NCBI RefSeq assembly: GCF_040529065.1
Contig: NZ_CP132343.1
Location: forward strand, 3,038,001-3,102,000
Length of the DNA stretch: 64,000 nucleotides
Reading direction: 5' to 3'
From: Xanthomonas sacchari
Lineage (GTDB): Bacteria > Pseudomonadota > Gammaproteobacteria > Xanthomonadales > Xanthomonadaceae
Shown here: one piece after another, positions 55,049 through 55,263 of the stretch
Position numbering within the stretch: the first letter of the stretch is position 1
Layout: every line of letters begins with the position of its first letter
Translations under genes and position numbers: made by a program
Notes under the pieces: model-generated
The model's database searches: none
Seen by the model: the letters and a program-made list of their open reading frames with translations, nothing else
What the model was told of the DNA's origin: nothing

Positions 55049-55263
55049 AGACGTTCTCCGCAGTAGACTCAGGCACGAGAGCACTCCTGCCGACGCCCAT
55101 GCTTGTGGAGTTCGAGCTCGCGACTCGGGCAACTGTTCGGGCTGATGAGGCAGGAGACACGGGGTGCGGCGGCGCTGACTCCTACTCGTGCTTGCTGGCA
55201 CCACGGCTAAACGGCCTGCCGCACTCCGCTCTCACCTGCAACGATAGACCCTCATTTGACACA
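55049..55263 (-). ncRNA. Candidate bridge RNA of the IS110 element
   Basis: Non-coding end upstream of the transposase. Read on the transposase strand (5' to 3') it contains, in order: AGCCG at 55208-55204, matching the left target side; GTAGGAG at 55185-55179, complementary to the right target side CTCCTAC including the CT core; ACAGTTG at 55136-55130, identical to the element's right end at 54125-54119; and CACAAG at 55107-55102, complementary to CTTGTG formed by the CT core and the left end (complement of 55265-55260). Target loop first and donor loop second is the order known for the bridge RNA of the IS110 relative IS621. RNA boundaries cannot be set by eye. Confidence 0.7.

Follow-up and report, generated by a model that had tools for sequence, protein, structure and literature searches.

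A probable IS621-type bridge RNA, overlapped on the opposite strand by the small RNA sX15, in the left end of an IS110 element of Xanthomonas sacchari

The window analysed here, a 64,000-nucleotide stretch of the Xanthomonas sacchari genome (NZ_CP132343.1, positions 3,038,001 to 3,102,000), carries an IS110-family element whose 215-bp left end almost certainly codes for an IS621-type bridge RNA in the same orientation as the recombinase gene. An earlier note, made from the letters of the window, had interpreted this non-coding end as a bridge RNA, and the interpretation is now supported by covariation between guides and targets and by a conserved fold. The guides change in step with the targets, and this comparative evidence is decisive. 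The mechanism itself is already known from IS621, and the earlier note overrated its novelty. The part most worth following is the link with sX15 (RF02234), a small RNA (sRNA) family of Xanthomonadaceae whose Rfam title does not mention a transposon; it covers the same 160-nt stretch at full length on the opposite strand, and both its identity and the antisense strand had been missed.

The element, its recombinase and its insertion site

The element lies at 54118..55263 on the minus strand and measures 1,146 bp without the CT cores, its ends being set by eight genomic copies and by an empty site in genome G007. The cores, a 2-bp duplication, occupy 54116..54117 on the right side and 55264..55265 on the left side. 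Flank comparison places the left target GAAGCCG, within the Xanthomonas repetitive extragenic palindromic (REP) sequence, at 55266..55272 and the right target (RT) CCTAC at 54111..54115, all read on the minus strand; the whole target is CGGCTGAAGCCG-CT-CCTACGG, and the element runs TGTGTC...ACAGTTGA with CT at both ends. At the orthologous empty site in G007, the flanks 53800-54117 and 55264-55799 join with an overlap of exactly 2 bp, the core, which is the only duplication at insertion, and the repeat is likewise uninterrupted at the orthologous position in G010 and G013. The guide segments had been said to fix the core and both ends of the element, and the copies and the empty site give the same boundaries.

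All eight copies in the host genome are inserted at GAAGCCG-CT-CCTAC, a part of this Xanthomonas REP, and exact GAAGCCGCTCCTAC sites number 337 in the genome. Seven of the copies are identical, which suggests that the element was recently active. In ten other Xanthomonas genomes, the copies that were read all lie at [A/G]AG[C/T]CG-CT-CC[T/C]AC, the equivalent position of the repeat, and a copy on a plasmid of Xanthomonas sacchari R1 occupies GAAACCG-CT-CCTAC. At loci L076, L077, L095, L102 and L103, the remaining repeat is non-canonical and the retained bases are those opposite the guides. The earlier note had named the same guides in unrelated flanks as the observation that would overturn its reading; no such case was found among close homologues in the eight copies and the ten Xanthomonas genomes. 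The copies of G241, with their masked stretches, were left out of the analysis, and a search of genome contigs returned four distant loci only.

The recombinase gene (54125..55048, minus strand) encodes a 307-aa DEDD/Tnp protein that matches PF01548 (DEDD_Tnp_IS110, 7.9e-17) and PF02371 (Transposase_20, 1.4e-15), both above the curated cut-offs, and that belongs to the IS110 family, IS110 group. The 215 bp upstream of this gene and 7 bp downstream are non-coding, which fits the IS110 group and is unlike IS1111, where the non-coding region is downstream. Among proteins of the PDB, only the recombinases of IS621 (8wt6) and ISCro4 (9t56) were matched; ISCro4 gave the best solved-structure match (E 3.2e-20), a comparison that covers the protein, and the homology with IS621 of E. 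coli reached E 1e-18. Equivalents of all five IS621 catalytic residues, D11, E60, D102, D105 and S241, are kept in the alignment, that of S241 being assigned by combining the alignment with the residue names of PMC11208158, and the motifs YIGID, VLEAS, KTDVLDAR and DSG align with IS621.

Guides, targets and fold

The published architecture of IS621 (PMC11208160, PMC11208158) matches that of the window element in its predicted left-end RNA on the transposase strand, its target loop followed by a donor loop, its CT core, circle-junction promoter and REP target, and its handshake bases. Four segments singled out in the earlier note are letter-exact on the minus strand, and the flank reading agrees with their proposed matches to the target flanks, the element ends and the core. 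GTAGGAG (55185-55179), the right target guide (RTG), pairs with CT-CCTAC at 7/7 positions. AGCCG (55208-55204) matches the left target and stands in the slot of the left target guide (LTG), TTAGCCGTG (55202..55210), which is preceded by an invariant CCG. ACAGTTG (55136-55130), the left donor guide (LDG), is identical to the right end, the match ending one base before the end of the element (ACAGTTG[A]CT), and CACAAG (55107-55102), the right donor guide (RDG), pairs with CT-TGTG. As had been claimed, the order and polarity of the segments are those of IS621; they fit the transposase strand only. Together the four form an ordered set of exact, core-adjacent matches with 25 bases in total. No set as good arose in 20,000 sequences simulated from the region with a first-order Markov model, which bears out the view that the set is unlikely by chance; an equally good one was found in 0/4,988 tiles of the remaining window, and the reverse complement gave none (score 0).

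For the comparison of guides with targets, we took 20 related elements with fixed boundaries and scored LTG and RTG against every target by one search, the gap range of which was narrowed to approximately the IS621 spacing after an earlier wide-gap result had been seen. In that wide-gap search, CAGGCCGTT had been called as an LTG, a false call that sits inside a stem. The own-target trace was 492 versus a permuted mean of 376 (standard deviation 15), with 0/50,000 permutations reaching it, and for the nine distinct target classes it was 218 versus 166, again with 0/50,000, the elements in both cases being related to one another. Besides the window-type pair CCTAC/GTAGGAG, exact RTGs are CGTGGAG for CT-CCACG (G262), CATGTAG for CT-ACATG (G264), GTGGGAG for CT-CCCAC (G019), GTCTGAG for CT-CAGAC (G091) and CTCTGAG for CT-CAGAG (G070, G027); between G091 and G070, RTG and RT differ by one compensatory base. 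On the left side, LTG TGAGAGCCT goes with TAAGAGC-CT (X. arboricola, L109), ATAACGCCT with the attC-like targets CTAACGC-CT, TGTGGATCC with CGTGGAT-CT (G283) and TAAGTCGCA with GAAGTCG (G003).

Directly after the RTG, we found a dinucleotide absent from the earlier note, TC (55177..55178, minus strand), which corresponds to the handshake guide described for IS621 (PMC11208158) and pairs with donor positions 6-7, GA. It covaries with the donor end in relatives: in every element with a correctly located RTG, the next base is T for donors with a final A and C for donors with a final G, the RTG of L109 and the RDG of L178 being excluded as misplaced automatic calls. The RDG is CAAG in elements whose left end starts with TG and TAAG in those whose left end starts with TA, and LDG CGGTTA accompanies donor CGGTTA. 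When donors were permuted in a six-class matrix, own donors were not consistently favoured; the donors are nearly uniform. Target and handshake pairings are directly readable in this set of elements, which would amount to a natural collection of close RNA-guided recombinases whose guides evolution has rewritten for several REP sequences and attC-like sites.

The bridge RNA is predicted to extend over 55077..55238 on the minus strand, on the basis of the conserved fold and the guides, with its transcription start site at about 55233-55235. A conserved two-loop structure, for which the earlier note had suggested looking, was found in an alignment of 16 elements: 95.4% of cells pair, and compensatory changes on both sides occur at 9/39 pairs, a result reached by 0/500 shuffles and with all slid controls far lower. 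The supported helices are a closing helix, the target-loop stem with a bulged A (5' arm 55214..55228, 3' arm 55160..55173), in which five pairs are changed on both sides, the hairpin GTGC-CAGCAA-GCAC between the target guides (55188..55201) and a nested donor-loop stem with its hairpin, with the coordinates again on the minus strand. The invariant CCG that precedes the LTG and the G that follows the hairpin stand at the linker and syn-G positions of IS621 as given in PMC11208158, compared by text, not structure. Unlike IS621, the window element has another REP sequence and other guides, its RTG pairs over 7 bases, and its RNA of ~160 nt has a closing GAGAGC/GCUCUC helix.

Several related elements showed features of their own. 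Elements at L192 and L202-L211 (G249, G105, G072, G226, G169, G101, G206, G149, G292) are inserted at attC-like sites (CTAACGC-CT-GAGTTAAGC) and have matching guides. Those at L195-L201 (G027, G091, G070) form a subgroup whose left end differs and lacks both the GAGAGC closing helix and the TAnnnT hexamer of the antisense strand; their targets share chiefly the right side (CT-CAGAC or CT-CAGAG), and their RTGs are exact. At L205 (G226), two versions of the right end GACAGTTGC stand in tandem, and core and target follow the outer one only.

Junction promoter, proposed mechanism and the opposite strand

The left end carries a -10 box, TATCGT (55241..55246, minus strand), and in the junction sequences the right end and the core together read TTGACT, a -35 box at a spacing of 17. 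The sigma70-like arrangement TTGACT-17-TATCGT would be formed at the circle junction only, and the integrated form loses the -35 because REP sequence precedes the left end. The same junction arrangement is seen in most relatives and is unclear in G283 and G091. Excision of the element as a circle would bring the -35 of the right end, across the core, 17 bp from the -10 of the left end, and since the right end supplies the -35 there, the circle with its completed promoter would be the main source of the transposase-strand RNA. This RNA would fold with two internal loops. In the first, both strands of the REP target would be paired, GAAGCCG by the LTG and CT-CCTAC by the RTG; in the second, the joined ends of the element would be paired, ACAGTTG by the LDG and CT-TGTG by the RDG. 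The recombinase would then swap strands at the CT core and leave the insertion with a core on both sides. From the sequences we infer transcription of the RNA, its binding by the protein and the recombination.

The original paper on sX15 is reportedly that of Schmidtke et al. (NAR, 2012). At gathering thresholds, the Rfam search gave no match at the window locus; below them, the sX15 homologue at 55077..55238 on the plus strand covers the full model (1-159) with 27.5 bits versus a gathering score of 55. Elsewhere the bit scores are 56-61 in G018 and G005 and, at order level, up to 182 for IS110 elements in G264, G274 and G283. When the two lists were compared, 65/65 sX15 matches of the genus coincided with IS110 left ends on the opposite strand, and in nearly all order-level loci checked, a recombinase adjoins the sX15 match on the other strand, the ambiguous cases being L230 and L232. 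As such, sX15 is very probably derived from IS110, which would explain what encodes this orphan Rfam family.

A putative -10 box of the antisense RNA, TAGACT, lies at 55064..55069 on the plus strand. In 18/21 loci, a TAnnnT hexamer with varying middle bases is found at this place, where it precedes the 5' end of sX15 by 6-9 nt; no good -35 partner for it was seen. In ISPpu9 of Pseudomonas putida, an antisense sRNA at the same place over the upstream region, Asr9 (~180 nt), was shown experimentally (PMC8450116). The Rfam orientation and the hexamer suggest that sX15 is, like Asr9, antisense to the bridge RNA and covers all of it. We can picture, at somewhat less than even probability, that every integrated copy has an internal promoter from which sX15 is made as a full-length antisense of the bridge RNA, with the bridge RNA coming from the circle only; the antisense could then pair with the bridge RNA and regulate transposition, copy number being one conceivable means. 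Antisense RNA control of bridge-RNA transposons thereby becomes testable.

ISPpu9 and ISPpu10, both IS110 elements, also resemble the window element in their insertion into REP sequences with a 2-bp repeat; ISPpu9 differs in having a downstream sRNA, Ssr9, for which the 7-bp right end of the window element has no room. The seekRNA of ISEc21, an IS110-type element (Siddiquee et al. 2024, PMC11187229), likewise comes from a non-coding region upstream of tnp, with the bottom-strand match before the top-strand match, whereas it is described as shorter, 74 nt, and has a different target.

Alternative explanations

Since all sX15 matches in the genus lie opposite IS110 left ends, a hexamer is conserved upstream of sX15 and Asr9 offers a precedent, the structured RNA might primarily be this opposite-strand RNA, a regulator of transposase expression to which the guide-like matches are secondary. 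We consider this very improbable. Polarity and order of the guides fit only the transposase strand, G-U pairs outnumber A-C mismatches there (11 versus 7, a weak lean), and both RNAs can coexist.

Slightly less probable still is that the recombinase itself recognises the REP hairpin and that the RNA matches arose by coincidence or are left over from earlier insertions. Some observations favour this reading or, more generally, weigh against a bridge RNA. One repeat is the target of all Xanthomonas copies, a preference encoded in the protein would also yield identical flanks, and only a few positions covary within the genus; because of this single target, the strong covariation test comes from distant relatives. 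LTG matches are poor in a few relatives, G162, G155 and G231. In the window element, the target pair alone is weakly significant, being equalled or beaten by 86/3,000 shuffled targets and 145/3,000 shuffled left ends, and these 3-5% of shuffles justify the caution with which the 5-base left target match had been called the weakest. The LTG slot matches at 5/7 bases, and its core position (55202-55203) is UG, unpaired, in the seven identical copies. This differs from IS621, where LTG and core dinucleotide are base-paired; the RTG of the window element does form pairs with the core. Considering that this position is CA in the eighth copy and other Xanthomonas copies and CA, CC or CT in relatives, UG appears to be a variant detail, one departure from the IS621 type, and suggests that pairing between LTG and core is dispensable. 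Single-sequence folding gave a stability no better than that of shuffles (z -0.19), and the fold rests on comparison because such folding fails to separate the region from shuffles.

Recognition by the protein is nevertheless contradicted by guides that track their targets in relatives, including the compensatory base of G091 versus G070, by insertions at non-canonical repeats that retain only the guide footprint, and by the agreement of all four segments in order and strand; these findings argue for the bridge RNA. That four matches, every one of them short, arose by chance in a GC-rich region can be practically dismissed in view of the simulations, the window tiles and the covariation across the family.

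Apart from this element, the window contains a match to the Rfam sRNA sX2 at 5872-5977 on the minus strand, with 56.4 bits, above gathering.
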